64,000 nucleotides of DNA, taken from contig WRLG01000014.1 of NCBI GenBank assembly GCA_009777725.1, positions 1 to 64,000 of the forward strand, given 5' to 3'. Position 1 is the stretch's first letter. Each line of letters starts with the position of its first letter. Below the pieces are notes generated by a model. The model did not search any database. It was given only the letters and a program-made list of their open reading frames with translations, and had not been told where the DNA came from. The stretch comes from Oscillospiraceae bacterium. Lineage in GTDB: Bacteria; Bacillota; Clostridia; Oscillospirales; Ruminococcaceae. This document shows positions 15,546 to 31,064 of this stretch, piece by piece. Position numbers and translations under genes: made by a program.

Positions 15546-16334
15546 ATGAAAATGAATATTGGCATCGGAATAGCTAAATGTTTAAAAAACGATAATATTT
15601 ACGGAGTTCGAGTTGAAGAGATACAAAAGGATAAGTGGGAAGCCACTTGGGCGTTTCCAATTAAACCTGAAGTTGCGAAACGCGAGGGTTATACCGAGCA
15701 AGTCTTTCCCAAAAATCTGACCTACGGTAAGGAATACCCCGGTTGCCCTTATTGCAAGAAATTTGAGAAATTGAACACAACTGCATCTGGCTCCGGTTCT
15801 CAAAAAGCAGACGTATACTTGGCTATTGATTTATCAGGAAGTATGAGCGGTGAGCCGCTGACTGAATCTAAAAAAGCGATGATAGACTTTGTAAAGCAGA
15901 TGAACTCTAATCAAATCAGAATCGGAGTCATTGCATTTGCAACAAGCTTGTCGCACGTTTTACCCTTAACCAATGATTACAACAAAGTAATTAATTCAAT
16001 AAACGGGCTTTACATAGGACTCGTGGGTAACGGAAATGCCGCAGAGCCATTCACTCTTGCGTATCCTAACCTTAAAAATGGCAAAGGGATGCGTTATATT
16101 TTAGTTTTAACCGATGGTGAATGGTGCGATTTAGATGAAAGGTCAGCTATTGCGGAAGCGAAAAAGTGTCACGCCGCTGAAATAGAGGTGGTAGCTCTTG
16201 GATTCGGGAGCGTGAAAAAACAATTCTTAGATGCTATTGCTTCGTCGAAAGAGTATTCAAAGTTAACTACTCTAAACAACCTTGCAGATGCGTTTACAGG
16301 ATTTGCAAAAGATATCGGAATAAAAAAGAAATAA
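15546..16334 (+). CDS. vWA-domain protein with an N-terminal Cys-containing segment
   Basis: CPYCKK; DVYLAIDLSGSMSGEPLTESKKA MIDAS (DLSGS), LVLTDGEW. Confidence 0.85.
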   Translation: MKMNIGIGIAKCLKNDNIYGVRVEEIQKDKWEATWAFPIKPEVAKREGYTEQVFPKNLTYGKEYPGCPYCKKFEKLNTTASGSGSQKADVYLAIDLSGSMSGEPLTESKKAMIDFVKQMNSNQIRIGVIAFATSLSHVLPLTNDYNKVINSINGLYIGLVGNGNAAEPFTLAYPNLKNGKGMRYILVLTDGEWCDLDERSAIAEAKKCHAAEIEVVALGFGSVKKQFLDAIASSKEYSKLTTLNNLADAFTGFAKDIGIKKK

Positions 16335-16364
16335 TTTTAAATTGTGTACATAAGGGGAATTGCA

Positions 16365-17417
16365 ATGAAAAATGCTGTTAAACAAACATTACGCAAAATT
16401 AATAACCATTTCAAGTTGGAGGAACCGGAGATATTCAATAATTCTACAAGGTTTAAAACCGCGTTTAAAGCCGCGCTTAAAGATGTTAAAATCGAACCGG
16501 ACGGCGATGTGATTCGCCATTTGCTTGAAATTGCTATATGCAAAATGCAAGCTTATTCCCGCCTGCAACAGGGTTTAAGCAAGAATGAATTTATCATTGA
16601 TAATCTTATTTTGGAAATGAAGAAGTATTATCCTGATGAAAATACCGTCAGAATGGTAATTGAAAGTATAGCGGAGGAATTGTTTGGGTATATGCCCGTT
16701 TCTACTCCCGCTCCAAATACCGCTTTTAACCCACCCCCGCAACAAACCGGGACACAACCGAAGCCAATACCTCCGCAAACCGACCGCATAGAATTCGGCG
16801 GATATAACTGGCGGGTGCTTGACATTCAGAATGATGCCGCATTAATTATTACGGAAAATATTATAGACCAACTAGCTTATCACAATAAATTTACTGCTGT
16901 AACGTGGGCTGACTGCGATTTAAGGAAATACCTAAACGGAGAATTTTTAAGTAATTTCAGCCCATTTGAACTTGCAAAAATTATTCCTATGCCAAATTTG
17001 AACCCTAATAATCCGTGGTGGGGAACAAACGGCGGAGCGGAAACAACAGATAAAGTGTTCCTTCTTTCTCTTCAAGAAGTTTGCCGTTATTTCGGAGACA
17101 GCCGAGCGCAACTGAACAGTAGTGTTAAAAAATCTTTAGCGGCTGAAATAAAGAGGGAATATTGGGATAAAGGTAAAACCAAATGGGATGAGTGGAAAGA
17201 TTTTTTTCTTGATAATGAGATTTATGTCACTGATGAAAACAATTCCAAAAGAATGTCAAAATATGGTAATAAATCTTCGTGGTGGTGGCTTCGGTCGCCC
17301 GGCCTCGACAGCGGTAGTGCCGCCCGTGTCGGTTTTGGCGGTTTTGTCAACGTCAATGGTGACTTTGTCAATTTTGGTGTCGGCGGTGTTCGTCCCGCTT
17401 TGTGGCTGAATCTGTAA
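16365..17417 (+). CDS. DGR variable protein 1 (shared N-terminal domain, DUF6273/C-lectin-like C terminus)
   Basis: SWWWLRSPGLDSGSAARVGFGGFVNVNGDFVNFGVGGVRPALWLNL*; start after an AAGGGGA ribosome-binding site. Confidence 0.85.
   Translation: MKNAVKQTLRKINNHFKLEEPEIFNNSTRFKTAFKAALKDVKIEPDGDVIRHLLEIAICKMQAYSRLQQGLSKNEFIIDNLILEMKKYYPDENTVRMVIESIAEELFGYMPVSTPAPNTAFNPPPQQTGTQPKPIPPQTDRIEFGGYNWRVLDIQNDAALIITENIIDQLAYHNKFTAVTWADCDLRKYLNGEFLSNFSPFELAKIIPMPNLNPNNPWWGTNGGAETTDKVFLLSLQEVCRYFGDSRAQLNSSVKKSLAAEIKREYWDKGKTKWDEWKDFFLDNEIYVTDENNSKRMSKYGNKSSWWWLRSPGLDSGSAARVGFGGFVNVNGDFVNFGVGGVRPALWLNL
17277..17417 (+). repeat. DGR variable region VR1
   Basis: Shares the invariant frame tcgtggtggtggcttcggtcgcc...gttcgtcccgctttgtggctgaat with four other copies; differences concentrated at codon positions 1-2 of NNY codons. 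Confidence 0.85.
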
Positions 17418-17444
17418 TCTTTTATCTGTTAATCTGATAAATCG

Positions 17445-17530
17445 TTAAATCCCGCCCGTGGGCGGCAATCTCCCGCCGCCGTGCGGCGGAATCTAATAAT
17501 CCCGCGTAAGCGGGTCGCGATTTTTGGAAA
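17445..17530. repeat. Tandem stem-loop array downstream of VR1
   Basis: ccgccc/gggcgg, ccgccgc-cgt-gcggcgg, cccgcgtaagcggg separated by aatct; recurs after VR2. Confidence 0.8.
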
Positions 17531-17586
17531 ATGAGGATTCATTGTTTTTGAAGGAATAATTTTTAAAATATAAGGAGGCAATTATC

Positions 17587-18903
17587 ATGGCATTTTCAAA
17601 GGAGAAGAACACAGTCCGGCTTGCGAACGGACAAGCTTTGACAATCAAGAAACCACTCGGCGACGGAGGGCAGGGAATAGTTTACAAGGTTGACTATTCG
17701 GGCAAGGAGTATGCCTTGAAGTGGTACAAGTCCAACTATTTGAAGGATTTGGACGAACGGCATAAAAACGGCAAGCAGCTTTTCAAGGAGAATATTCAGG
17801 CAAATATTGACAAAGGAAGCCCGAACGATAAGTTTTTGTGGCCCGAAGCGTTGACGGAAGAAATTGACGGTTGCTTTGGCTATATCATGAAACTTCGCCC
17901 GCAGGGGTATTACGATTTTAACGATGTTTACAACAATAAAGTCCCGTTTAAAAGCTTTCGGGCGACGGTTGAGAGTGCATTGGGAATCGTAAATGCGTTT
18001 AGTTCATTACATAAAAAAGGTTACTTTTATTTGGATTTAAACGGCGGCAACTTTTTCATTGATACCAAAAACGGCGATGTGCTTATCTGCGATAATGATA
18101 ACGTAACCGCTGAACCTAAATATAATTTAGGTCTGCCCGGCTATATCGCCCCCGAATTGGTAAGAGGCGAAAAGGGGGCGAAATCTAATGCCTTGACTGA
18201 TGCACATTCTCTTGCGGTTGTTTTGTTTCGGCTGTTTATGCGGCACGACCCCCTTATGGGCAGAAACTATTGCTCGAGCGTGGTTCTTACGGCGGCTAAG
18301 GAAAAGGAGTTATACGGAACAAAACCTGTCTTTATCTTTGACCCCGCTGATGATTCAAACCGCCCTGTTTTAAACCTGCACACAAACCCCATAAAGCTTT
18401 GGCCCATTTACCCTGAATATGTCAGAAAAGCTTTTATTGAAACATTTTGCGAGGGTATGAAAACCCCGGCGAAACGCCTTATTGAATCGGCTTGGGCAAA
18501 AGTCTTGTTAAAGTTAAGCGACGACATTTTAACCTGCACCTGCGGTACGGATATTCTTTGGAGCAATAAGGAAAATGCGGTGATTTGCCCAAAATGCGGG
18601 GTAAACTTAGGAAAGCCGCTTCATATTGATTACAACGGATACAGCATTAACCTTTTCCCCGGCAACAAAATTTACAGCACGCATATTGACGATGATTTCA
18701 ATAAACGAAGCGATTACGGATTAATTCTCGCCAATAAGCAAGACCCGAAAAAATGGGGAATAAAAAATATGTCCGGCGGCAATTGGAGCGTTAAAAAGCC
18801 TTCGGGTGAAACCGTAACAATTGCTTCAGGCAAAATAATTTCAATAGCCGAGGGAACGGAAATAGAGTTGCCCGGCGGCAAAAAACTTATCATTAGCGCG
18901 TAA
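17587..18903 (+). CDS. TerY-P-type protein kinase with C-terminal zinc ribbon
   Basis: LGDGGQGIVYKV...YALKWY, YLDLNGGNFFI catalytic loop, VLICDNDNV metal-binding motif, CTCGTDILW...CPKCG. Confidence 0.82.
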   Translation: MAFSKEKNTVRLANGQALTIKKPLGDGGQGIVYKVDYSGKEYALKWYKSNYLKDLDERHKNGKQLFKENIQANIDKGSPNDKFLWPEALTEEIDGCFGYIMKLRPQGYYDFNDVYNNKVPFKSFRATVESALGIVNAFSSLHKKGYFYLDLNGGNFFIDTKNGDVLICDNDNVTAEPKYNLGLPGYIAPELVRGEKGAKSNALTDAHSLAVVLFRLFMRHDPLMGRNYCSSVVLTAAKEKELYGTKPVFIFDPADDSNRPVLNLHTNPIKLWPIYPEYVRKAFIETFCEGMKTPAKRLIESAWAKVLLKLSDDILTCTCGTDILWSNKENAVICPKCGVNLGKPLHIDYNGYSINLFPGNKIYSTHIDDDFNKRSDYGLILANKQDPKKWGIKNMSGGNWSVKKPSGETVTIASGKIISIAEGTEIELPGGKKLIISA

Positions 18904-18945
18904 TTTAGGCTAAACTAAAAAAATAAATTTATGGAGGAATTTTTT

Positions 18946-19734
18946 ATGGCAACGAAAACAGCAGTAAATCCTTTGGAGGGAGTTGGTAAACCTACTAAGC
19001 CAAACCTTGTCGTGTTTTTTGTAATTGATAAGTCTTATAGTATGGCGGGGGCAAGCATTAACGCAGTAAATCACGCTATGAGGGAGATAATACCTATCCT
19101 AAAAGATATAGACGGGCAGGATGCAGATTTAAAGGTGGCGGCACTTACTTTTTCAGCAGGGGCGGAGTGGGTTTATTCCAATCCGCAAGATGCAGAAGAA
19201 CTCGCATGGGTAGATGTTGAGGCTGATGGTTGGACTGACTTCGGTGCGGCTTGTGATGAACTGTGCAGTAAAATGTCGAGAAGTGCATATATGGCATCAA
19301 AAGCAGGTTATAAAAAACCCGTTGTTATTCTTCTGACGGACGGCGAACCTACAGATAATTGGGAGCCTAAGTTAGCGAAATTGAAACAAAACAGATGGTT
19401 TCAAGTCGCATTTAAAATTGGTCTTGCTGTTGATGATGCCAACGAGGATGTGCTTGGCGAATTTGTCGGAACAAAGAAAGGTAAGAACGGCAAATACGAG
19501 GGCGTTTACCGAATTGATGATGCAAACAAACTTAAAACAGCAATTAAGGTTGTTATCGTCACATCATCTGAAATCGGCAGCAGAAGTATGCCCATTGATA
19601 TTAACGTAGCCGATGCAGACCTTGATGATAAGCAACATAAAGACCTTCACGACATGATTGAAGAGAAACTTGATGACGATGATGCGTTCAGCGATTACGC
19701 CGCAACTTCTGATGATGATGAGGAGTGGGATTAA
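18946..19734 (+). CDS. TerY-like vWA protein
   Basis: VVFFVIDKSYSMAGASINAVNHAMREI, VVILLTDGEPTDNW. Confidence 0.87.
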   Translation: MATKTAVNPLEGVGKPTKPNLVVFFVIDKSYSMAGASINAVNHAMREIIPILKDIDGQDADLKVAALTFSAGAEWVYSNPQDAEELAWVDVEADGWTDFGAACDELCSKMSRSAYMASKAGYKKPVVILLTDGEPTDNWEPKLAKLKQNRWFQVAFKIGLAVDDANEDVLGEFVGTKKGKNGKYEGVYRIDDANKLKTAIKVVIVTSSEIGSRSMPIDINVADADLDDKQHKDLHDMIEEKLDDDDAFSDYAATSDDDEEWD

Positions 19735-19735
19735 T

Positions 19736-20776
19736 ATGGCTGATTTCAGCAAATTTAAAGCTAAATGTGAGGGATTTAGCCATAAAAAGAACGGAACAGT
19801 TTGTCAAGACTCGACTGATGCTCATAAATCGGATAAAATTGCTATATGCGTTGTAAGCGACGGACACGGCAGTGAGAAATACTTTCGGAGCGACAAGGGT
19901 TCTGATACAGCGGTTAAGGTTGCGATTGAAGCTGTTAAGCAGTTTGATTGGAAGCAGAGGTATAACACTTCCGACAAAACCAAAAAAGACGTTAAAGTGG
20001 AAGCTTTGTCTATGGAAAACTATAATAAACTATTCAATGAGCTTGCTCGTTATATTGTTGCTCAATGGTTTTTTGCGGTTGAAGCCCATTGGAAAGAGAA
20101 CACTCCGAATGAAGCTGAACAAGTCCTTTTTGAAAAACACTTTGCCGGCAAAGACGTAAATATTACAAAAATATACGGTGCGACCTTGATTATCGGTGTT
20201 ATGACCGCTCATTTTAGTTTTGTTGTTCAAATAGGCGATGGAGCGGCTGTGATTATTCCGCAAAACGGCGAGGCGTTTATTCCGCCGGAAACTGTAGACG
20301 AAAATCAAGGAGCAGGGCAAACCAATTCGCTTTCAAGCTCCAATTGTTTAGAGCGATTCCGCTATTATTATACCGAAGAACCGCTGAAAGCCATTGTTGT
20401 AACAACCGATGGTGTAACGGATTCTTACGGCGGTAACGATGGCAAGGATTTATTGCGGTTCTGCGAAAAGCTGGTTGACCTTCATATAGAAGATGATAAA
20501 CAGGCGAAAAGATTTTTAAATGATTGGCTACCTAGATTATCCGAACAAGGCAGTCAAGACGATATGTCTGTAGCGGGGATTTATGATGCTTCATCAAGAG
20601 TAACAGAATCTACGCCCGATAATATCGCTCCCGAATCGGAAATCATGTCTGCGGCTGAGCCGGAGGACAAGCCTGAACCTGAACCTGAACCTAAATCAGA
20701 TACTGAATCTGAAAACGACAATCCAAGCGAAGGAGAAACGGTAAATGAAAAGTCAAATACGGCAGGCGTTGAATAA
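19736..20776 (+). CDS. PP2C-like Ser/Thr phosphatase
   Basis: GTVCQDS, VVSDGHGSEKYF, VQIGDGAAVI, VVTTDGVTDSYG, SQDDMSVAGI. Confidence 0.85.
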   Translation: MADFSKFKAKCEGFSHKKNGTVCQDSTDAHKSDKIAICVVSDGHGSEKYFRSDKGSDTAVKVAIEAVKQFDWKQRYNTSDKTKKDVKVEALSMENYNKLFNELARYIVAQWFFAVEAHWKENTPNEAEQVLFEKHFAGKDVNITKIYGATLIIGVMTAHFSFVVQIGDGAAVIIPQNGEAFIPPETVDENQGAGQTNSLSSSNCLERFRYYYTEEPLKAIVVTTDGVTDSYGGNDGKDLLRFCEKLVDLHIEDDKQAKRFLNDWLPRLSEQGSQDDMSVAGIYDASSRVTESTPDNIAPESEIMSAAEPEDKPEPEPEPKSDTESENDNPSEGETVNEKSNTAGVE

Positions 20777-21725
20777 AATCATGGGCAGTTTCGGAGAATC
20801 GGCTTTTACTAATGCGAGGCAATTTAAAGCTGTTTTGTCTGATGTTCCCATTGAAACTAACGCTAAAAAAATCCGAAGCCTGTTAAACACGGCAATGGTT
20901 GAAATGCGGGCTTATTCACGGTTAAAGGCGGGGTTTGCAAAAAGCAGTCCGTTCATCGTTGATAATTTAATCAATGAAATGACGGAGGATTATGAAATTA
21001 ACCCCGCTTCTGCCAAAACAGTAATTGAGAGTATAGCCGAAGAATTATTCGGCTATACTCCTGTATCTGTCCCCGTTGCCAATACACCGCCCGCACCTAA
21101 TCCGCAACAACCCTTAAACCCGCAACCAATGCAAACTCCAATTGATGTTGACTTGCTCAAACAACAGCTTCTCACAGAAATAATGGGGCAAATTTCATCA
21201 GACCCGCAGTTTTCACAGAAAATGCCGCCCCAACCTCTGCCGACTAAAAATCCGGGTGCATCGTCAATACCGAAAATCGGTAGCATAATCCCATTCGGAG
21301 GTTATGATTGGCGAGTGCTTGATGTACAAAATAGTAAAGTTCTGCTAATAACAAAAGACGTTATAGAGAAACGCAAATTTGATGCTTCAACCAATAATTG
21401 GACAAAGTGTGAATTGAGAAAGTATCTTAACGGAGCATTTTACAATAGTTTTGATACAAGCGATAAATCGAGAATTGTTAGTTTTAACAGCGACAATGTT
21501 TTTTTATTGAGCGTTGATGAAGCAAGAAAATATTTTAAAAATGATTCTGATAGAGCGGCAAAATATGGAAAAGAAGCTTCGTGGTGGTGGCTTCGGTCGC
21601 CCGGCGACTATGGTGACAGTGCCGCCGGCGTCCTTTCCGACGGCAGTGTCTACGTCCTTGGCATCGACTTCTACGACGTGTCGGCGGTTGGCGGCGTTCG
21701 CCCCGCTTTGTGGCTGAATCTGTAA
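20745..21725 (+). CDS. DGR variable protein 2
   Basis: Shared N-terminal domain; SWWWLRSPGDYGDSAAGVLSDGSVYVLGIDFYDVSAVGGVRPALWLNL*. Confidence 0.85.
   Translation: MKSQIRQALNKIMGSFGESAFTNARQFKAVLSDVPIETNAKKIRSLLNTAMVEMRAYSRLKAGFAKSSPFIVDNLINEMTEDYEINPASAKTVIESIAEELFGYTPVSVPVANTPPAPNPQQPLNPQPMQTPIDVDLLKQQLLTEIMGQISSDPQFSQKMPPQPLPTKNPGASSIPKIGSIIPFGGYDWRVLDVQNSKVLLITKDVIEKRKFDASTNNWTKCELRKYLNGAFYNSFDTSDKSRIVSFNSDNVFLLSVDEARKYFKNDSDRAAKYGKEASWWWLRSPGDYGDSAAGVLSDGSVYVLGIDFYDVSAVGGVRPALWLNL
21579..21725 (+). repeat. DGR variable region VR2
   Basis: Same invariant frame as VR1; two codons longer. Confidence 0.85.
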
Positions 21726-21759
21726 TCTTTAATCTTTTAATCTGATAAATCGTTAAATC

Positions 21760-21840
21760 TCTAAATCCCGCCCCGTGGGCGGTAATCTCCCGCCGCCGTG
21801 CGGCGTAATCTATTCCCGCGGAGCGGGTCGCGATTTTTTG
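21760..21840. repeat. Tandem stem-loop array downstream of VR2
   Basis: Near copy of 17445-17530: ccgccccgtgggcgg, ccgccgccgtgcggcg, cccgcggagcggg, then tcgcgattttttgaaaaatgagg. Confidence 0.8.
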
Positions 21841-21862
21841 AAAAATGAGGTGTTTTTCAACT

Positions 21863-22252
21863 ATGAACGAAAAGAAGAGTGATTTGCTAATTGTAACCAA
21901 AGCAAAGGATTTGTGCAGTTATATTATGATAATCACGCAGAAATCACCGAAACAGTTTCGTTTTACATTCGTGAGCAGATTGCAGAATCTTTCGCTTGAT
22001 ATAATAGAGTGCATTTTCCGTGCCAATGATATTTTTATCGGCAAGGGCTTTGAAAAAAATGCGGAAAAGCGGCTTGAATTTCAGCATAAAGCTCTGACAA
22101 GTCTTAAAATACTCGCGTATATATCAGAAATTTCAATGGCACAAATGTGCATACTCCCTAAGCAATATGAGCAAATATCCAAATTAACCACAGACTGCCA
22201 AAGGTTATTGGGAGCGTGGATTAACAGCGATAAAAAGCGTTTTTCTTCCTAA
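21863..22252 (+). CDS. avd: Avd-like DGR accessory protein (four-helix bundle)
   Basis: AKDLCSYIMIITQKSPKQFRFTFVSRLQNLSLDIIE...ILPKQYEQISKLTTDCQRLLGAWINSDKKRF; directly upstream of the RT. Confidence 0.8.
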   Translation: MNEKKSDLLIVTKAKDLCSYIMIITQKSPKQFRFTFVSRLQNLSLDIIECIFRANDIFIGKGFEKNAEKRLEFQHKALTSLKILAYISEISMAQMCILPKQYEQISKLTTDCQRLLGAWINSDKKRFSS

Positions 22253-22374
22253 GGCGTGTTTGCGGAAACGGCGGGAAAACACTTGCCGACAGAGCCGGAA
22301 ACGCTGTTTATGCTTTTCTTGTTTTTTGAAAGCGGTATATTGCCGCTTTCACTTTCGGCGGAACAGGAGTAATT

Positions 22375-23472
22375 ATGTCTGATTATGAAAAAATGCACAG
22401 TTTTGAAAATTTATATAAAGCTCATTTAGTGGCAAGGCGGGGAAAACGCAATAAGGCGGAGGTTATTCGCTTTGAAATGAATCTATCGGAGAATTTATGT
22501 AAATTGCAGGAAACTCTGAAAAATAAAACCTACAAACCGCAGAAATATAAGCATTTTATGATATACGAGCCAAAGGAGCGTTCTATTTTCGCACCTGATT
22601 ATGCTGACAGGGTAGTTCAGCATTGTTTATGCGACAACATAATAATGCCTAAGCTTGAGCCAAGGTTAATATATGATAACGCCGCTTGCCGCATAGGAAA
22701 AGGCACACATTTTTCAATTGACAGATTATCGGTTTTTATGCGTGATTTTTATAAGAATCACGGAACAAGCGGATATTTTTTGAAATGTGACATCATGAAA
22801 TATTTTTACAGCATTGACCATAATGCGTTAAAACAAAAGCTGTCAAAAGTATTTAATGAAGAAGTTTACAGCTTGCTTTGCAGTATTATCGACAGCTATG
22901 AGGTTACGGACGGGGTTGGACTTCCTTTAGGCAACCAAGCAAGCCAATGGTTTGCCCTGTATTATCTTGATGCCGCCGACAGGCTCATTAAAGAGAAGCT
23001 GAGGATAAAATACTATGTCCGATACATGGACGATTTTATTCTTCTTCACCATGACAAGGAATATTTACGCCATTGTCTTGACGAAATACGAAGAATTTGC
23101 GGTGTTGAATTAAAAATTGAGTTGAATAACAAAACGCAGATTTTTGCCGTTAAAAACGGAGTTGACTATTTGGGCTGGCACTTTTATTTGACTGATACGG
23201 GCAAGGTTATTCGCAAATTGAAAACGCCGAATAAGCGGCGATTAAAGCGGCGTATGAAATTATTGCAGGAAGAATATCGCACCGGCATAATTGATATTGA
23301 TGATGTTAAACGCAGTTTGGTTTCAACTCACGGGCATTTGATTCATGGTCACACATATAGGTTTCGCGAAAAATTATACGGCAAAACTGCTTTTTCACGT
23401 TCGCAAGAAAACAATGCCATAAAGGGAGAGAAAATTAATCATGAAAGACCAAATAATCCAAGCATTACATAA
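22375..23472 (+). CDS. DGR-type reverse transcriptase
   Basis: FMIYEPKERSIFAPDYADRVVQHCLCDNI, CDIMKYFYSIDH, GLPLGNQASQWFALYYLD, YVRYMDDFILL (YMDD), GVDYLGWHFY; no maturase or HNH extension. Confidence 0.9.
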   Translation: MSDYEKMHSFENLYKAHLVARRGKRNKAEVIRFEMNLSENLCKLQETLKNKTYKPQKYKHFMIYEPKERSIFAPDYADRVVQHCLCDNIIMPKLEPRLIYDNAACRIGKGTHFSIDRLSVFMRDFYKNHGTSGYFLKCDIMKYFYSIDHNALKQKLSKVFNEEVYSLLCSIIDSYEVTDGVGLPLGNQASQWFALYYLDAADRLIKEKLRIKYYVRYMDDFILLHHDKEYLRHCLDEIRRICGVELKIELNNKTQIFAVKNGVDYLGWHFYLTDTGKVIRKLKTPNKRRLKRRMKLLQEEYRTGIIDIDDVKRSLVSTHGHLIHGHTYRFREKLYGKTAFSRSQENNAIKGEKINHERPNNPSIT

Positions 23473-24580
23473 AATAAAAGAACATTTCGGAACAGAGGTG
23501 TTTAATAATCCGAGGCAGTTTAAAGCTGTTCTTTCGGATGTACCGTTTGAGACCGATGCGAAAAAAATACGTAAACTTCTCGAAGTTGCTATATGCGATA
23601 TGCGGGTTTACTCTCGCTTGGAGGCAGGGCTGGCGAAGAATAATCTTTTTGTAGTCGGCAATTTGAGCAATGAGATGGCAACAGATAATTTTATGGATAT
23701 AGGTGTTGCTCAAATGACGATTGAGGCTATAGCGGAGGAGTTATTCAGCTATAAGCCTGTTTCGCCTGCCCAAGCTAATAATAATCCACCTACACAACAA
23801 CAACAATCACAACAACAATCACAATATCAACAATCTGCTCAACAACCTGCCCCAGAAAATCAGCCTCTAGATATGGAAGCATTGGGAGGGCAACTATTAG
23901 CTAAACTGATGGGCAGAATCACATCTGCAAATATTCCCATACCTCAATCTTTGCCGCAGGTTAAAATGCCGAACTTATTCAATTCTAACGATAGTCAAAT
24001 TATTGCTCCTAAAATCGGCAGTATAATCAAATTCGGCAGTTATGATTGGCGAGTGCTTGATGTGCAAAACGACAAAGCATTAATCATTACTGAAGAAATT
24101 ATTGAGAATAAAGCGTATCATAGTGATTTGGTTGATATAACATGGGCTGACTGCGATTTGAGAAAATATCTGAACGGCGAATTTATTAACAATGCTAAAA
24201 AATTCAGCCCAAATGATAGAGATAGAATTACCCCTGTGGTGAACAGAAACGCAGATAATCAATGGTATAACACAAACAGCGGCAGTGATACAACGGACAG
24301 CATTTTCTTATTGAGCTTGGAGGAAGTGCGTGAATACTTTGGTGGCAGTATGAAAAAATTACGAAATGTAAGAGTACCAGATGGGTGGTTTTCTGATAAA
24401 AATGATTCTAAGAGGGTGGCAAAATATGGTAAACAAGCTTCGTGGTGGTGGCTTCGGTCGCCTGGTATCTACAGCACTAGTGCCGCCATTGTCAATATTG
24501 TCGGTTCTGTCTACGTCAATGGTAACTATGTACACAATGTTCACGGCGGTATTCGCCCTGCTTTGTGGCTGAATCTTTAA
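23441..24580 (+). CDS. DGR variable protein 3 (with Q-rich linker)
   Basis: Shared N-terminal domain; SWWWLRSPGIYSTSAAIVNIVGSVYVNGNYVHNVHGGIRPALWLNL*. Confidence 0.85.
   Translation: MKDQIIQALHKIKEHFGTEVFNNPRQFKAVLSDVPFETDAKKIRKLLEVAICDMRVYSRLEAGLAKNNLFVVGNLSNEMATDNFMDIGVAQMTIEAIAEELFSYKPVSPAQANNNPPTQQQQSQQQSQYQQSAQQPAPENQPLDMEALGGQLLAKLMGRITSANIPIPQSLPQVKMPNLFNSNDSQIIAPKIGSIIKFGSYDWRVLDVQNDKALIITEEIIENKAYHSDLVDITWADCDLRKYLNGEFINNAKKFSPNDRDRITPVVNRNADNQWYNTNSGSDTTDSIFLLSLEEVREYFGGSMKKLRNVRVPDGWFSDKNDSKRVAKYGKQASWWWLRSPGIYSTSAAIVNIVGSVYVNGNYVHNVHGGIRPALWLNL
24440..24580 (+). repeat. DGR variable region VR3
   Basis: Same invariant frame. Confidence 0.83.
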
Positions 24581-24632
24581 GATTTAATCTTATTAAATCT
24601 TGCCTAAACAACAAAAGGAGAGAAAATTAATC

Positions 24633-25784
24633 ATGAAAGACCAAATAATCCAAGCATTACATAAAATTAAAAACAGCTTCGGAACAGAGGTGTTTAATAA
24701 TCCGAGGCAGTTTAAAGCGGTGCTTTCGGATGTACCGTTTGAAACCGATGCGAAAAAAATACGTAATCTGCTTAATATTTCTATTTGTGAAATGCAGGTT
24801 TATTCACGGTTAAAGGCGGGGTTTGCAAAAAGCAGTCCGTTCATCATTGATAATTTAATCAATGAAATTACGGCGGATTATGAAATTAACCCCGCTTCTG
24901 CCAAAACAGTAATTGAGAGTATAGCGGAGGAGTTATTTAACTATAAGCCCGCTTCGTCTGCCCAATCTAATTATAATCCGCCTATACAGCAACAATCCCA
25001 ACCCCAACAACCTATTTTGCAAAGCCAGCCTATAGATATGGAAGCATTAGAAGAGCAACTGTTAACTAAACTAATGGGCAGAATCACATCTGCAAATATT
25101 GCTATTCCCCAACCTGCACCGCAAGCTAAAACGCCCAACTTGTTCAATTCTAATGATAACCAAATTATTGCCCCCAAAATCGGCAGTATAATCAAATTCG
25201 GCAAATATAACTGGCAGGTGCTTGATGTTCAGAATAACGCCGCATTAATCATTACCGAAGAAATTATTGAGAAGAAAGCGTATCATAGTAACAGGACTGC
25301 TATAACATGGGCTGACTGCGATTTGAGAAAATATCTGAACGGTGAATTTATTAACAATGCTAAAAATTTCAGTCCAAATGACAAGGCGAGAATTATCTCT
25401 GTAATGAACGGAAACAGAGAAAACCAATGGTATGATACAAACGGCGGCAATGAAACAACGGACAGCATTTTTTTATTGAGTTTGTACGAACTTGTGAAAT
25501 ACTTTGGAGATAGCGGTGATTTGGAAAACGGCAAGGGTTGGAAATATGAGAGCGGCAAAAATGTATTGGCATATGGAAATGACCGTCGGTATATACACGA
25601 CCAGTATGATAAAAGCAGGGTGTCAAAATATGGTAACAAAGTTTCGTGGTGGTGGCTTCGGTCGCCCGGCTACAGCAGCGATTATGCCGCCTTTGTCTAT
25701 GATGATGGTTTTGTCCGCATCATTGGCTATGGTGTCGACATTGATTCCGGCGGCGTTCGTCCTGCTTTGTGGCTAGATTTGTAA
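24633..25784 (+). CDS. DGR variable protein 4
   Basis: Shared N-terminal domain; SWWWLRSPGYSSDYAAFVYDDGFVRIIGYGVDIDSGGVRPALWLDL*. Confidence 0.85.
   Translation: MKDQIIQALHKIKNSFGTEVFNNPRQFKAVLSDVPFETDAKKIRNLLNISICEMQVYSRLKAGFAKSSPFIIDNLINEITADYEINPASAKTVIESIAEELFNYKPASSAQSNYNPPIQQQSQPQQPILQSQPIDMEALEEQLLTKLMGRITSANIAIPQPAPQAKTPNLFNSNDNQIIAPKIGSIIKFGKYNWQVLDVQNNAALIITEEIIEKKAYHSNRTAITWADCDLRKYLNGEFINNAKNFSPNDKARIISVMNGNRENQWYDTNGGNETTDSIFLLSLYELVKYFGDSGDLENGKGWKYESGKNVLAYGNDRRYIHDQYDKSRVSKYGNKVSWWWLRSPGYSSDYAAFVYDDGFVRIIGYGVDIDSGGVRPALWLDL
25644..25784 (+). repeat. DGR variable region VR4
   Basis: Same invariant frame; followed by a shortened stem-loop remnant cctgcataagcgggttgcgatttttgaaaaatgagg. 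Confidence 0.83.
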
Positions 25785-25836
25785 TTCTATAATCCTGCAT
25801 AAGCGGGTTGCGATTTTTGAAAAATGAGGATATACT

Positions 25837-26871
25837 ATGAGTTCTTTAACCAATCCCAAGCAACGCTATTATTACTCGTTGCTTTCAGAAAATGACAAGA
25901 AAATATATGATGATATTGTTTCGGCTTGGAGGGATTTGAATAGAAATGTTAAAATTCCCAACTCCCCGAGTTGCGGCATTTCAACTATGTTAGAGTATAT
26001 TCGTTATGACATTCCCAAGCTGTTTTATGTTGATTTTAACGGGATTTCTTATAGAAATCATTTTAATTCGGTTACGTTGAACACGAGGTTTCACTATACA
26101 GATTCAGAGATTGCTAATCTGAAAAAACAGCTGAATAAGGCGATTAAGTCATTTACTTGCAATATTTTAAATGAGAAGATGTCACCTTTTGAGCGTGAAT
26201 TATCGGCACATGACTTTTTAGCAAGTACGGTAAAATACGATTTTCAAAGCAAGAACGATTTCGAGAACGCATCTATTGTAGCCCCATTGCTAAAGAATCG
26301 CGGGATTTGCGAGGGATATGCTAAGGCATTTAAACTGCTGTGTGATGAAATCGGAGTTAGTTCGCTTGTTGCTTTCGGGACGGCAGTAAATAGTCTGAAT
26401 TACGTTAAAACAGGAACAGGCGAATATGAAGGACACGCTTGGAATATAGTAAAAATCGGCGGGAAATGTGCTCATGTTGATGTAACATGGGATTCTGTTA
26501 ACCCTTTACAAAATAATTCAAAAATTCGTTATGACTACTTTAATCTTGCCGATGATGAAATATCCAAAGACCACGTTTGGGACAAAAATAAATACCCTAA
26601 ATGCGACACTCACAATATGAGCTACTATCATGTCAATGATTATTATATTACAAGTAAGGGCGATTTTGAAAAATATATAATAAATCAGATTAAGAATAAA
26701 GTCGCCTCTTTTAATGTCAAATTTAGCTTTGAATTCGAGGACAATAAGGAGATTACCCGATATATTTCTAAAGCAATGTCAAAGTATCCTCTAATTCTCA
26801 AAACATGGAGTTATTCATTAGGGGTTTCCTATAACAAAGCAATGCGAACGGCGTTAATAACTATTGAGTAG
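25837..26871 (+). CDS. Transglutaminase-like superfamily protein
   Basis: RGICEGYAKAFKLLCDEIG (Cys), GHAWNIVKIGG (His), HVDVTWDS (Asp). Confidence 0.75.
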   Translation: MSSLTNPKQRYYYSLLSENDKKIYDDIVSAWRDLNRNVKIPNSPSCGISTMLEYIRYDIPKLFYVDFNGISYRNHFNSVTLNTRFHYTDSEIANLKKQLNKAIKSFTCNILNEKMSPFERELSAHDFLASTVKYDFQSKNDFENASIVAPLLKNRGICEGYAKAFKLLCDEIGVSSLVAFGTAVNSLNYVKTGTGEYEGHAWNIVKIGGKCAHVDVTWDSVNPLQNNSKIRYDYFNLADDEISKDHVWDKNKYPKCDTHNMSYYHVNDYYITSKGDFEKYIINQIKNKVASFNVKFSFEFEDNKEITRYISKAMSKYPLILKTWSYSLGVSYNKAMRTALITIE

Positions 26872-26895
26872 GTAAAAATTGATTGGAGATATTAT

Positions 26896-27924
26896 ATGAA
26901 AAACCAAATAATCCAAGCATTACATAAAATAAAAGACCATTTCGGAACAGAGATATTTAATAATCCGAGGCAGTTTAAAGCTATTCTTTCGGATGTACCA
27001 TTTGAAACTGATGCGAAGAAAATCCGTAATCTGCTCAATATTTCTATTTGTGAAATGAAGGTTTATTCACGTTTGGAAAAAGGGTTAGCAAAGAATAATA
27101 CTTTTGTCGTTGGTAATCTCATTGATGAAATGGTAAGAGATTATTATCCTGATGAAAATACTGTTAAAATAGTAATAGAAACTATGGCAGAGGAGTTGTT
27201 CGGCTATATTCCTGTATCTGTCTCCACTACCAATACACCGCCCGTACCTAATCCGCAACAACCCTTAAACCCGCAACCAACGCAAGCTTCCATTGATGTT
27301 GACTTGCTCAAACAACAGCTTCTCACAGAAATAATGGGGCAAATTTCATCAGACCCGCAATTTTCTCAGAAAATGCCGCCTCAACCTCTGCCGACTAAAA
27401 ATCCGGGTGCATCGTCAATACCGAAAATTGGCAGTATAATCCCGCTCGGAGGTTATGATTGGAGAGTGCTTGATGTACAAAATAGTAAAGCCCTGCTCAT
27501 AACAAAAGACGTTATAGAGGAACACCCCTACAATACAAAGTATACAGGCGTTACATGGGAAAAATGCACTTTGCGGCAATATCTTAACGGCGAATTCTAT
27601 AATTTGCTCGGACAAGATAAATCACGCATTTCTCGTGAAAGGGTTGTTAATTCAGATAACCCTAAATATATTACACCTGGTGGAAATGACACTAACGATA
27701 AAATATTTTTATTGAGCATGTCAGAAGCAAATAAATACTTTAAAAATGATTCTGATAGAATGTCAAAATATGGTAATAAAGCTTCGCAGTGGTGGCTTCG
27801 GTCGCCTGGCTACGGCAGCCTTTATGCCGCCTATGTCCTCGGTGGCGGTAGTGTCGACGTCTATGGTAAAGATGTCAACTATGACGACTACGGCGTTCGT
27901 CCCGCTTTGTGGCTGAAAATATAA
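26896..27924 (+). CDS. DGR variable protein 5
   Basis: Shared N-terminal domain; SQWWLRSPGYGSLYAAYVLGGGSVDVYGKDVNYDDYGVRPALWLKI*. Confidence 0.83.
   Translation: MKNQIIQALHKIKDHFGTEIFNNPRQFKAILSDVPFETDAKKIRNLLNISICEMKVYSRLEKGLAKNNTFVVGNLIDEMVRDYYPDENTVKIVIETMAEELFGYIPVSVSTTNTPPVPNPQQPLNPQPTQASIDVDLLKQQLLTEIMGQISSDPQFSQKMPPQPLPTKNPGASSIPKIGSIIPLGGYDWRVLDVQNSKALLITKDVIEEHPYNTKYTGVTWEKCTLRQYLNGEFYNLLGQDKSRISRERVVNSDNPKYITPGGNDTNDKIFLLSMSEANKYFKNDSDRMSKYGNKASQWWLRSPGYGSLYAAYVLGGGSVDVYGKDVNYDDYGVRPALWLKI
27784..27924 (+). repeat. DGR variable region VR5
   Basis: Same invariant frame; TGG to CAG change near its start and a divergent 3' end. Confidence 0.78.
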
Positions 27925-27948
27925 TTAAATTCAAAGGAAATTCAAGCT

Positions 27949-28671
27949 ATGGAAAAATATATTCAAAGAGATTATTCTGAATACGAAGCACTGAGGGTGC
28001 AGTATGCAAACACGGCTGACCCGCAAATAAAGGAGCAAATACGGGCTTTGGGTGAGCTTGTTAATTTGAAAAACGACTTGGATTTAACAAACGGCGACCC
28101 GAATACGAAACAATTAGGCGGCAGATACGGCGATGTCAAGGGCAAAATAGCGGGTTATCATGCTCATCATATTCCTCCGAAATCGGTAAGCGACCATAAT
28201 ATGAACACCCTGCCCGCTATCTGCATGACAAGCGAAGATCACAGAATGACCGCAAGCTACGGGAACAGAATGAAAGCGGTGTTTTCACCGGAGGACAAGA
28301 ATGACAACACAACATATAAAGAGAAGTTAATCAAGCAAATTAACGATGGCAATTATGCAGATGCTTTCAGAAATGAAGTATATGAAATTAAAATGAAATT
28401 CGGCGATAAATACGACGGTGCGATTAAACAGGCGATTGAAGCAAACGCCGATTATCTGAAAGAATTCGGCAACCCGCATAAGAATCAAGGCATTGAAGCG
28501 TTCAGGGAGAAGTCGGCTGATAAAACATCAAATCAAACGGCAAATAAAGGAATAGAAAGCTTCCGCAGCAAAGAGGGCAGTCAAATGCCTCAACGCAATC
28601 AACATAGCCAAAATGCCCAAAACGGAAATCAATCAAGCGGACAAGCCAGCGGAAGCGGTCAAGGGAGGTAG
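27949..28671 (+). CDS. HNH/EndoVII-like putative nuclease effector
   Basis: AGYHAHHIPPKSVSDHNMNTLPAICMTSEDHRMTASYG resembles HHxPP...DHxxT...G toxin nuclease motifs. Confidence 0.55.
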   Translation: MEKYIQRDYSEYEALRVQYANTADPQIKEQIRALGELVNLKNDLDLTNGDPNTKQLGGRYGDVKGKIAGYHAHHIPPKSVSDHNMNTLPAICMTSEDHRMTASYGNRMKAVFSPEDKNDNTTYKEKLIKQINDGNYADAFRNEVYEIKMKFGDKYDGAIKQAIEANADYLKEFGNPHKNQGIEAFREKSADKTSNQTANKGIESFRSKEGSQMPQRNQHSQNAQNGNQSSGQASGSGQGR

Positions 28672-28677
28672 TTTACT

Positions 28678-29676
28678 TTGAGGGAACAGATTATACAGGT
28701 GTTACACAAAATCAAGGAAAGTTTCGGTACGGATGTGTTTGCGAACCCGAGGCTTTTTAGTGCTGTGCTTGCTGACGTTAAAATTGAAACAGATGCTAAA
28801 AAAATCCGCAACCTGCTTAATATTGCTGTTCGGGATATTCATATATATCAACGATTGGAAAAAGGATTAGCAAGCAACAATAAATTTATAATCGACAACC
28901 TTATTTGTGAAATTTCGTCAGACTATATGATAGAAAAAACTGCTTCGCAAGCAGTAGTTGAAGCTTTTGCCGATTTGTTAGGATATATTTCACCGCCTGT
29001 CGCAACTGCTCGTAAAGTGGTGGTAAATCCTTTAGAGGGGTTAATACCTACAAGACCAGTTCTTATCGTATTTTTTGTAATTGATAAATCCGGCAATATG
29101 GCGGGAGCAGGCATTAACGCACTAAACCACGCCATGAGGGAGATGATACCTATTCTCAAAAACATAGACGGGCAAGGTGCAGATTTAAAGGTTGCGGTTC
29201 TTACTTTCTCAGCGGGAGCAGAGTGGCTTTATTCAGAGCCTCAAGATGTAGAGGATTTTGAATGGTATGACATTGAAACGAATCTTGATTATGATTGGGA
29301 TAACTACACTTCTGATTTTGGTGCGGCTTGCGATGAACTATACGTTAAAATGTCAAGAGAGGCATACATGAGCTCGAGAAAAGGTTACAAAATCCCCATT
29401 ATTATACTTATAACAGCCGGAAAACCTACGGATAATTGGCAACCATCTTTAGCGAAATTAAAGAAAAACAGATGGTTTAAAGCTGCATTTAAAATCGGAC
29501 TTGCGGTTGATGATGCCAACGAGAATGTGATTGGCGAATTTGTCGGAACAAAGAAAGGTAAGAATGGCAAATATGAGAGGGTTTACCAACCTTATGATGC
29601 AAATAAGCTAAAAAAATTATTTAGGGGTGAATACTCTTCGTATGTGTGTAGTCATGAGGATGAGGATTGGGATTAA
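28678..29676 (+). CDS. Fusion: variable-protein N-terminal domain + TerY-like vWA with damaged MIDAS
   Basis: N terminus MREQIIQVLHKIKESFGTDVFANPRLF matches the variable proteins; C terminus aligns to 18946-19734 but DKSYS is DKSGN and LTDGEP is ITAGKP. Confidence 0.82.
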   Translation: MREQIIQVLHKIKESFGTDVFANPRLFSAVLADVKIETDAKKIRNLLNIAVRDIHIYQRLEKGLASNNKFIIDNLICEISSDYMIEKTASQAVVEAFADLLGYISPPVATARKVVVNPLEGLIPTRPVLIVFFVIDKSGNMAGAGINALNHAMREMIPILKNIDGQGADLKVAVLTFSAGAEWLYSEPQDVEDFEWYDIETNLDYDWDNYTSDFGAACDELYVKMSREAYMSSRKGYKIPIIILITAGKPTDNWQPSLAKLKKNRWFKAAFKIGLAVDDANENVIGEFVGTKKGKNGKYERVYQPYDANKLKKLFRGEYSSYVCSHEDEDWD

Positions 29677-29753
29677 TATGGCTAAATTATAACATTTAAT
29701 AATGAGAGAACTTTTGTAAATAGCCAAAAACAATTTTAAAAAGGTGAAATAAC

Positions 29754-31064
29754 ATGAACATATCAACCCGCCTACTCTACGGCAACACAGTAACGCAAAA
29801 TACCCCACCTGCACAAACAAGCGGAGCTGTCAAACTCCACGGTACTTTTGCGGGCAAACCGTCAGCTTTCACGCTCAACAATGACACATTAAGCAAACAC
29901 ACAATGCTCATCGGCGGAACAGGTTGCGGCAAAACAACGCTCTTTTATCATTTTATTTCGCAGTTAAAAAAATCAATGACGAACGATGATGTGATGATAA
30001 TTTTTGATAGCAAGGGTGATTTTCATTCAAAGTTTTTCAACAAAACAACGGATATAATTATCGGAAATTCAAAGCAATATTCGGCTGAATCGGCGCATTG
30101 GAATATCTATAAAGAAATCCTCGCCGATGGCTTGGAAGAGCGGGATTTTATCATAAACACACAAGAAATCTGCAAGTCATTCTTTGAGGAACGCACTAAA
30201 AATACAACAAACGCTTTCTTCCCAAACGCCGCAAGAGATTTATTGGCGGCAATTATAATCACCTTTATTCGTGAGGGCAAAAAAGACTCCGCAATAAAAA
30301 AAGAGTTTTTCTACAACAGCAAGCTTAAAGAATTTTTAGATTTATCCGATTCGCAAATGATTATGGATTTGCTCGGCGACAGCCCCGATGCTAATGCAAT
30401 TTTATCCTACATAAGCGGCGACAACGCACAATCGCAGGGCGTTTTATCTGAAATGTATTCCGTCATAAGAGAGATTTTAATCGGCGTTTTTGCCGAACGA
30501 GGTATGTTTTCCATGCGTGAATTTGTCCGTAATAAGGGAAAACGAACCCTATTCATTGAGTACGACCTTTCAATCGGCAGTATGCTAACCCCTGTTTATC
30601 GTTTAATGTTCGACCTCGCACTCAAAGAAGCTCTCGGGCGAAACAAGCCGCAGGGCAACGTCTACCTTGTTTGCGATGAGTTTAAATTGCTCCCTCATTT
30701 GAAACACATTGACGATGGCGTTAATTTCGGGCGTAGTTTAGGCGTGAAAGTTTTTGCGGGTATTCAGAGTATCGAGCAATTATACGAAATCTACGGGCAA
30801 AGCCGAGGGCGGAATATTGCGGCGGGGTTTTCGTCAGTTTACGCATTTCGCTCAAATGATACAGCGACACGAGATTTCGTCACAGGTCTATTCGGCAAAA
30901 ATATCGTTTTAGAAAAATATCAGCGTTTGGATAATCAAATTATCGAAGAAAAACGGAACGGACAAACTGTCGAGGACTGGGATATGAACAGCCTGAAAAT
31001 CGGCGAAGCGATTGTAGGTTTGCCGTTTTCACAGCCGTTTAGGTTTTATTTTGATAACTATTAA
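29754..31064 (+). CDS. T4CP/TraD-like coupling ATPase
   Basis: MLIGGTGCGKTTLFYHF Walker A, IIFDSKGDF, VYLVCDEFKLLPHL Walker B. Confidence 0.8.
   Translation: MNISTRLLYGNTVTQNTPPAQTSGAVKLHGTFAGKPSAFTLNNDTLSKHTMLIGGTGCGKTTLFYHFISQLKKSMTNDDVMIIFDSKGDFHSKFFNKTTDIIIGNSKQYSAESAHWNIYKEILADGLEERDFIINTQEICKSFFEERTKNTTNAFFPNAARDLLAAIIITFIREGKKDSAIKKEFFYNSKLKEFLDLSDSQMIMDLLGDSPDANAILSYISGDNAQSQGVLSEMYSVIREILIGVFAERGMFSMREFVRNKGKRTLFIEYDLSIGSMLTPVYRLMFDLALKEALGRNKPQGNVYLVCDEFKLLPHLKHIDDGVNFGRSLGVKVFAGIQSIEQLYEIYGQSRGRNIAAGFSSVYAFRSNDTATRDFVTGLFGKNIVLEKYQRLDNQIIEEKRNGQTVEDWDMNSLKIGEAIVGLPFSQPFRFYFDNY

Follow-up and report, generated by a model that had tools for sequence, protein, structure and literature searches.

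The locus considered here raises the question of how a diversity-generating retroelement (DGR), a bacterial system that ordinarily goes on altering the binding sites of sensor proteins, can possess intact avd and reverse transcriptase (rt) genes, along with a whole series of variable repeats (VRs), and yet show no template repeat (TR). The window, by which we mean the whole 64,000-nucleotide stretch analysed (positions 1 to 64,000 of contig WRLG01000014.1, Oscillospiraceae bacterium assembly GCA_009777725.1), encodes on its plus strand five variable proteins, all five of which are matched by DUF6273: variable protein 1 (16344..17417; VR core 17286-17405), 2 (20745..21725; VR core 21588-21713), 3 (23441..24580; VR core 24449-24568), 4 (24600..25784; VR core 25653-25772) and 5 (26896..27924; VR core 27793-27912). 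Between the second and third of these, on the same strand, lie the genes for the DGR accessory protein Avd (21845..22252; 135 aa) and the RT (22375..23472; 365 aa). A prior sequence-only reading had described these two genes as adjacent and intact, and both frames are indeed open throughout, with the Avd frame beginning at 21845 and the ATG at 21863, taken in that reading as the start, being internal. It had also correctly observed that the RT runs into variable protein 3, the RT stop at 23472 being situated inside a gene whose ATG is at 23441. For the missing TR it had offered four explanations: that the TR acts in trans from outside the window, was lost, was collapsed in assembly, or is too diverged to be seen.

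The affinities of the two proteins are with DGR components. Avd is matched by the PHROG family 'Avd protein of DGR' (E 6.1e-24), and by the Pfam bAvd (E 3e-9) and NCBIfam DivGenRetAVD models, the latter two both under their curated cut-offs; it retains 14 of 14 near-invariant positions, and searches by sequence found no solved structure for it. The RT displays the motifs LGNQASQ, corresponding to the (I/V/L)GxxxSQ signature of the DGR clade, and YMDD (YxDD), and retains 26 of 27 near-invariant positions, the exception being L248I. It is matched by PHROG 1423 (E 1.9e-119), and among PDB entries it is matched best by 8ub7, 'Reverse transcriptase' (E 1.8e-41). Assignments to other RT types were rejected, as the scores fell far short of the curated cut-offs for group II intron RTs (group_II_RT_mat, 101 bits vs 300), DRTs (Drt3a, 69 vs 200) and retrons (retron St85, 43 vs 235). 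Genome-wide, the window RT and the window Avd each have a single match, and a further contig with VRs, C1, is without an RT of its own.

Altogether, eight VRs were found in the genome, namely the five of the window and three on the minus strand of C1 (12677-12802, 15915-16040 and 18537-18662), and two truncated variable-protein genes retain the VR tail alone. Across the eight VRs the variable codons have the form NNY, with C or T as the third base in 118 of 120 and variation at the first two bases; this is the pattern that adenine mutagenesis of AAC/AAT codons in a template leaves behind. This adenine signature was read from the comparison of VRs with one another, there being no TR for a direct TR-VR comparison. 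At the 56 non-adenine sites the VRs differ pairwise by 2-12 changes, and no two share an identical backbone. Two backbone classes are apparent: class A, comprising the VR of variable protein 2 and C1:15915-16040, with 2/56 differences, and a second class (class B), comprising the other six VRs, which show 3-7 differences among themselves; between the classes there are 8-12. The occurrence of the class-A backbone both in the window and on C1 points to one template having served both contigs.

The absence of a TR rests on similarity searching of the assembly, which amounts to 2.77 Mb in 49 contigs. Within the window, the conserved VR start occurs in exactly five copies, all in coding VRs, and the 11-base VR end likewise in five exact copies, bearing out what had been noticed by eye. 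The A-substituted VR consensus that had been proposed as a query retrieved 8 of 8 VRs from the whole assembly at E <= 2.9e-11, together with the two truncated VR tails, and no TR; the first match that was neither a VR nor a VR tail had an E of 0.17. A VR query and the whole TR region of a relative (L040) furnished no further candidates in the assembly, and the same TR region had no significant match in the single sibling genome of the genus. Two segments considered as TR ends, C1:232893-232927 and C1:19502-19554, were discarded, both being tails of truncated variable-protein genes. An unbiased scan for TR/VR pairs by adenine mismatches detected no TR in the window or the C1 locus; since the same scan recovers the TRs in most of the relatives' loci, the missing TR is not attributable to a weak search. 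The possibility that the TR is too diverged to be seen is accordingly disfavoured, because both the A-substituted consensus and the relatives' TR region retrieve the VRs with ease. Alignment found no TR anywhere in the window, and in particular none beside the RT. Phrase searches of the literature for reports on DGRs without a TR returned nothing relevant.

Comparison with related loci locates the TR of the relatives in the very spacer that is short in the window. The gap between avd and rt (22253-22374) is 122 bp long and, as previously stated, is without VR-like sequence. In the closest relatives by RT (L040, L041 and L042; 65-67% identity) the TR lies inside an avd-rt spacer of ~395-535 bp, and the TR is situated between avd and rt in L040-L046 and others (that of L043 was placed by eye, with its VR masked). 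Among relatives sharing at least 46% RT identity, the gap mostly measures 340-535 nt, as against 122 in the window; in one group of more distant relatives (37-43% RT identity) avd and rt nearly touch and the TR is elsewhere. The distance from the avd stop to a three-way-junction RNA preceding rt is 236-413 nt in 11 relatives, where it holds the TR, vs 17 nt in the window. The window thus lacks ~220-395 nt, usually ~250, corresponding to the TR and an adjoining GGCAAAGGAA...ATTCC element; this element is absent from the window spacer, in which AAAGGAA was looked for and none was found. The 17-nt junction itself (22253..22269, plus strand; GGCGTGTTTGCGGAAAC), which extends from the avd stop codon to the retained RNA element, was examined as a TR remnant and rejected: 14 of 20 aligned bases resemble the start of the L040/L042 TR region, but an unrelated site in L041 matches equally well.

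The remainder of the spacer (22270..22361, plus strand) is the 3' part of the DGR RNA, the distal spacer 'Sp', which forms the three-way junction. Plain alignment of the spacers with MAFFT put that of the window in the wrong place; the correct placement was obtained by folding and by a covariance model (R1) built from L040, L041 and L042 only, with the window excluded. This model matches 22270-22361 over its full length (model positions 1-100) with an E of 7.6e-11, and in the entire genome the window element is its sole convincing match (E 3.3e-9; next 0.33). When folded, the window element and those of the relatives alike adopt this three-way junction, though relative to shuffled sequences the window fold is weaker (z -2.4 vs -3.3 to -6.1 in the relatives). 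In an alignment of 13 sequences fitted to the model, both partners have changed in 28 of the 33 base pairs, and 95.7% of the cells are paired, compared with 40-52% in slid controls; the window element has 3 unpaired cells, equal to the worst relative. Rfam contains no match to the spacer, its only match (E 0.58) falling inside avd. In the DGR of the Bordetella phage BPP-1, the TR-rt spacer both recruits RT-Avd and provides, through an internal adenine, the primer for cDNA synthesis (PMC12875486); by analogy, the missing GGCAAAGGAA...ATTCC element may be the priming part in this group of DGRs.

These observations are best explained by a template-less and probably frozen DGR, which most likely arose through a deletion in the avd-rt spacer and is in an early stage of decay. 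The ancestral order would have been that still seen in the closest relatives, i.e. variable protein, avd, a spacer with 5' leader, TR, primer-proximal element and three-way-junction RNA, and then rt; the deletion, as the assembly presents it, would begin ~17 nt past the avd stop and end immediately short of the three-way junction. RT-Avd would then no longer be able to make VR cDNA, as a consequence of which the eight VRs would be fixed and could change only by ordinary mutation or recombination. Of the earlier suggestions it is loss that is supported: relatives carry the TR in this spacer, and of their spacer the window retains just the RNA element located 3' of the TR. The locus combines a DGR-clade RT, Avd and adenine-varied VRs at the 3' ends of the targets; as a TR was searched for and none was found, we do not class it as a complete DGR.

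As for an artefact in which the assembler collapsed the TR onto a VR, the ~20-bp identical ends that the TR and VRs would share are a known hazard for short k-mers. A collapse of this kind, however, would join contigs within the shared sequence, whereas the avd-rt junction carries no VR-like sequence; moreover, each of the five window VRs is a complete coding repeat, and the expected RNA element is where it should be, in the 92 nt ahead of rt. This explanation is therefore very improbable.

A more serious contender is a TR in sequence absent from the assembly, on another replicon or in a gap, that the intact RT and Avd would draw on in trans. An assembly of 49 contigs leaves room for it, diversification in trans has been described in Thiohalocapsa PB-PSB1 (PMC10907252), and the 2/56 likeness of the class-A repeats suggests that one template supplied two loci, including one on a contig without an RT. 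Against this, the TR site of the relatives is this very locus, from which it has been deleted, and no TR was found in the assembly, nor any three-way-junction element other than that of the window. Furthermore, the non-adenine backbone differs between all the VRs, unlike what recent use of one template would yield. The idea of a template in trans thus loses ground for the sequence that was assembled and retains some for what is missing from it; on the whole we consider it unlikely.

The backbones also bear on the state of the DGR. In complete relatives with RT identity of at least 53%, non-adenine mismatches between VR and TR mostly number 0-2, the exceptions being 4-5 in L050 and L059; below that identity, L052 (51%) shows up to 18, and the RT-broken locus L088 has a VR with 5. 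The DiGReF survey (PMC3521204) took an accumulation of non-adenine changes to indicate that a DGR is inactive. As a counterpoint, some relatives that keep their TR (L050 and L052) also have VRs with many such mismatches, and the heterogeneity of the backbones could also stem from successive versions of the TR while the system was active. After long inactivity one would not expect an RT free of stop codons or a preserved RNA fold. By a rough estimate, an unconstrained RT would have been expected to acquire ~5 stop codons in the time over which the class-B VRs diverged silently (~9% of third positions per lineage), with a probability below 1% of acquiring none, and none is seen. The template was therefore lost recently, compared with the divergence of the VRs, or the RT and Avd remain under selection, insofar as this rough estimate holds.

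Two further scenarios draw on this preservation. One is a genuine but polymorphic deletion, with the assembly representing the deletion variant and other cells carrying an intact DGR. The freshly intact appearance of RT and Avd would agree with this, as would the intact variants that long reads revealed for disrupted DGR loci of Thiohalocapsa (PMC10907252), but the VR backbones bear no sign of recent overwriting, and we regard such a mixture as rather improbable. The other is that RT, Avd and the three-way-junction RNA were kept by selection for another purpose after the loss of the template, for example as a complex of RT and Avd, bound to RNA, which might regulate either the sensors or the operon encoding it, or might copy some other RNA; the chances of this, too, appear slim. 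The deletion followed by early decay remains our preferred reading.

The genomic neighbourhood is suggestive of the role of the diversified proteins. From 15546 to 31064, genes for vWA proteins, a protein kinase, a PP2C phosphatase, a transglutaminase-like protein and a T4SS coupling-type (conjugation-type) ATPase are interleaved with those for the variable proteins. The N-terminal domain of these variable proteins also occurs in the vWA protein at 28678. DGR targets near signalling modules such as vWA and kinase proteins have been proposed to be antigen sensors (PMC10907252, PMC7159879), and by analogy the variable proteins of the window may likewise be sensors. G+C-rich inverted repeats are present at 17440-17530 and 21760-21840, 3' of variable proteins 1 and 2, and look like the hairpins found downstream of VRs in some DGRs.

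Other members of this RT group are broken in other ways. In an uncultured Lachnospiraceae MAG (L054:7818-8930) the N-terminal half of Avd is fused in frame to RT residue 20, and the TR and RNA spacer are absent between them; in a Synergistaceae MAG (L088:278-1412) Avd and the TR are intact, and a deletion has removed the RNA spacer along with the N-terminal half of the RT. The isolate genome of Enterococcus sp. 669A (L053:8001-10800) has an RT with an early stop, two VRs and no Avd nearby, and a search of that genome for Avd and a TR found neither. The sibling genome (G001) contains no RT and no RNA element, and its best Avd match is insignificant (E 0.05); it does preserve remnants, namely a VR-like relic (WWLRTPG...GIRPALWLN) and a DUF6273 fragment (L211:1012-1158 and L213:1438-1635). 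On the basis of two genomes of the genus, a stagewise loss of the DGR in the genus is plausible. As a separate observation, three loci titled Betaproteobacteria, Accumulibacter and Zoogloeaceae (L047, L049 and L051) encode RTs 53-56% identical to that of this Clostridia-type DGR, reflecting either horizontal transfer or misbinning.

The locus offers a natural template deletion with eight VRs, in which two questions can be addressed: is a fixed repertoire of sensors tolerated or favoured, and does RT-Avd do anything once its template is gone? A further product of the comparison is a well-supported RNA model of the TR-rt spacer in this group of DGRs, which can locate TR regions even where no VR is nearby.

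Among known systems, the closest are the gut Clostridia DGRs of Defluviitaleaceae Th196P1bin10 (L040), Clostridiales Lab288P3bin85 (L041) and Lachnospiraceae Pal332_bin6 (L042). They share with the window the gene order variable protein-avd-rt, RTs and Avds that are 65-67% and 66-69% identical, respectively, the VR end GVRPALWLNL and the three-way-junction RNA before rt, and in L042 a similar conjugation-type ATPase lies downstream. In contrast to the window, which has lost its TR and has more copies of the variable protein, all three still have a TR in the avd-rt spacer, and adenines account for 93-100% of their TR/VR mismatches. The BPP-1 DGR (mtd-avd-TR-Sp-brt) likewise has an Avd and a GxxxSQ-type RT, and of its structured spacer with recruiting and priming functions (PMC12875486) the window retains the distal part, lacking the primer-proximal part and the TR; its target is a phage tail protein, whereas those of the window are DUF6273 proteins in a bacterial signalling neighbourhood. 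The incomplete DGR loci of Thiohalocapsa PB-PSB1 (PMC10907252) similarly present targets without a complete local cassette, and sensors near vWA and kinase proteins, but those loci have a matching TR at another genomic site or in structural variants, whereas none was found in the genome studied here. The inactivated DGRs of DiGReF (PMC3521204) resemble the window in representing a natural loss of DGR function, upon which non-adenine mutations are expected to accumulate. Those cases, like most reported instances of DGR decay, combine broken RTs with intact TR/VR pairs; here the sequence of events is reversed, the template having been lost first, and RT, Avd and part of the guide RNA outlast it.
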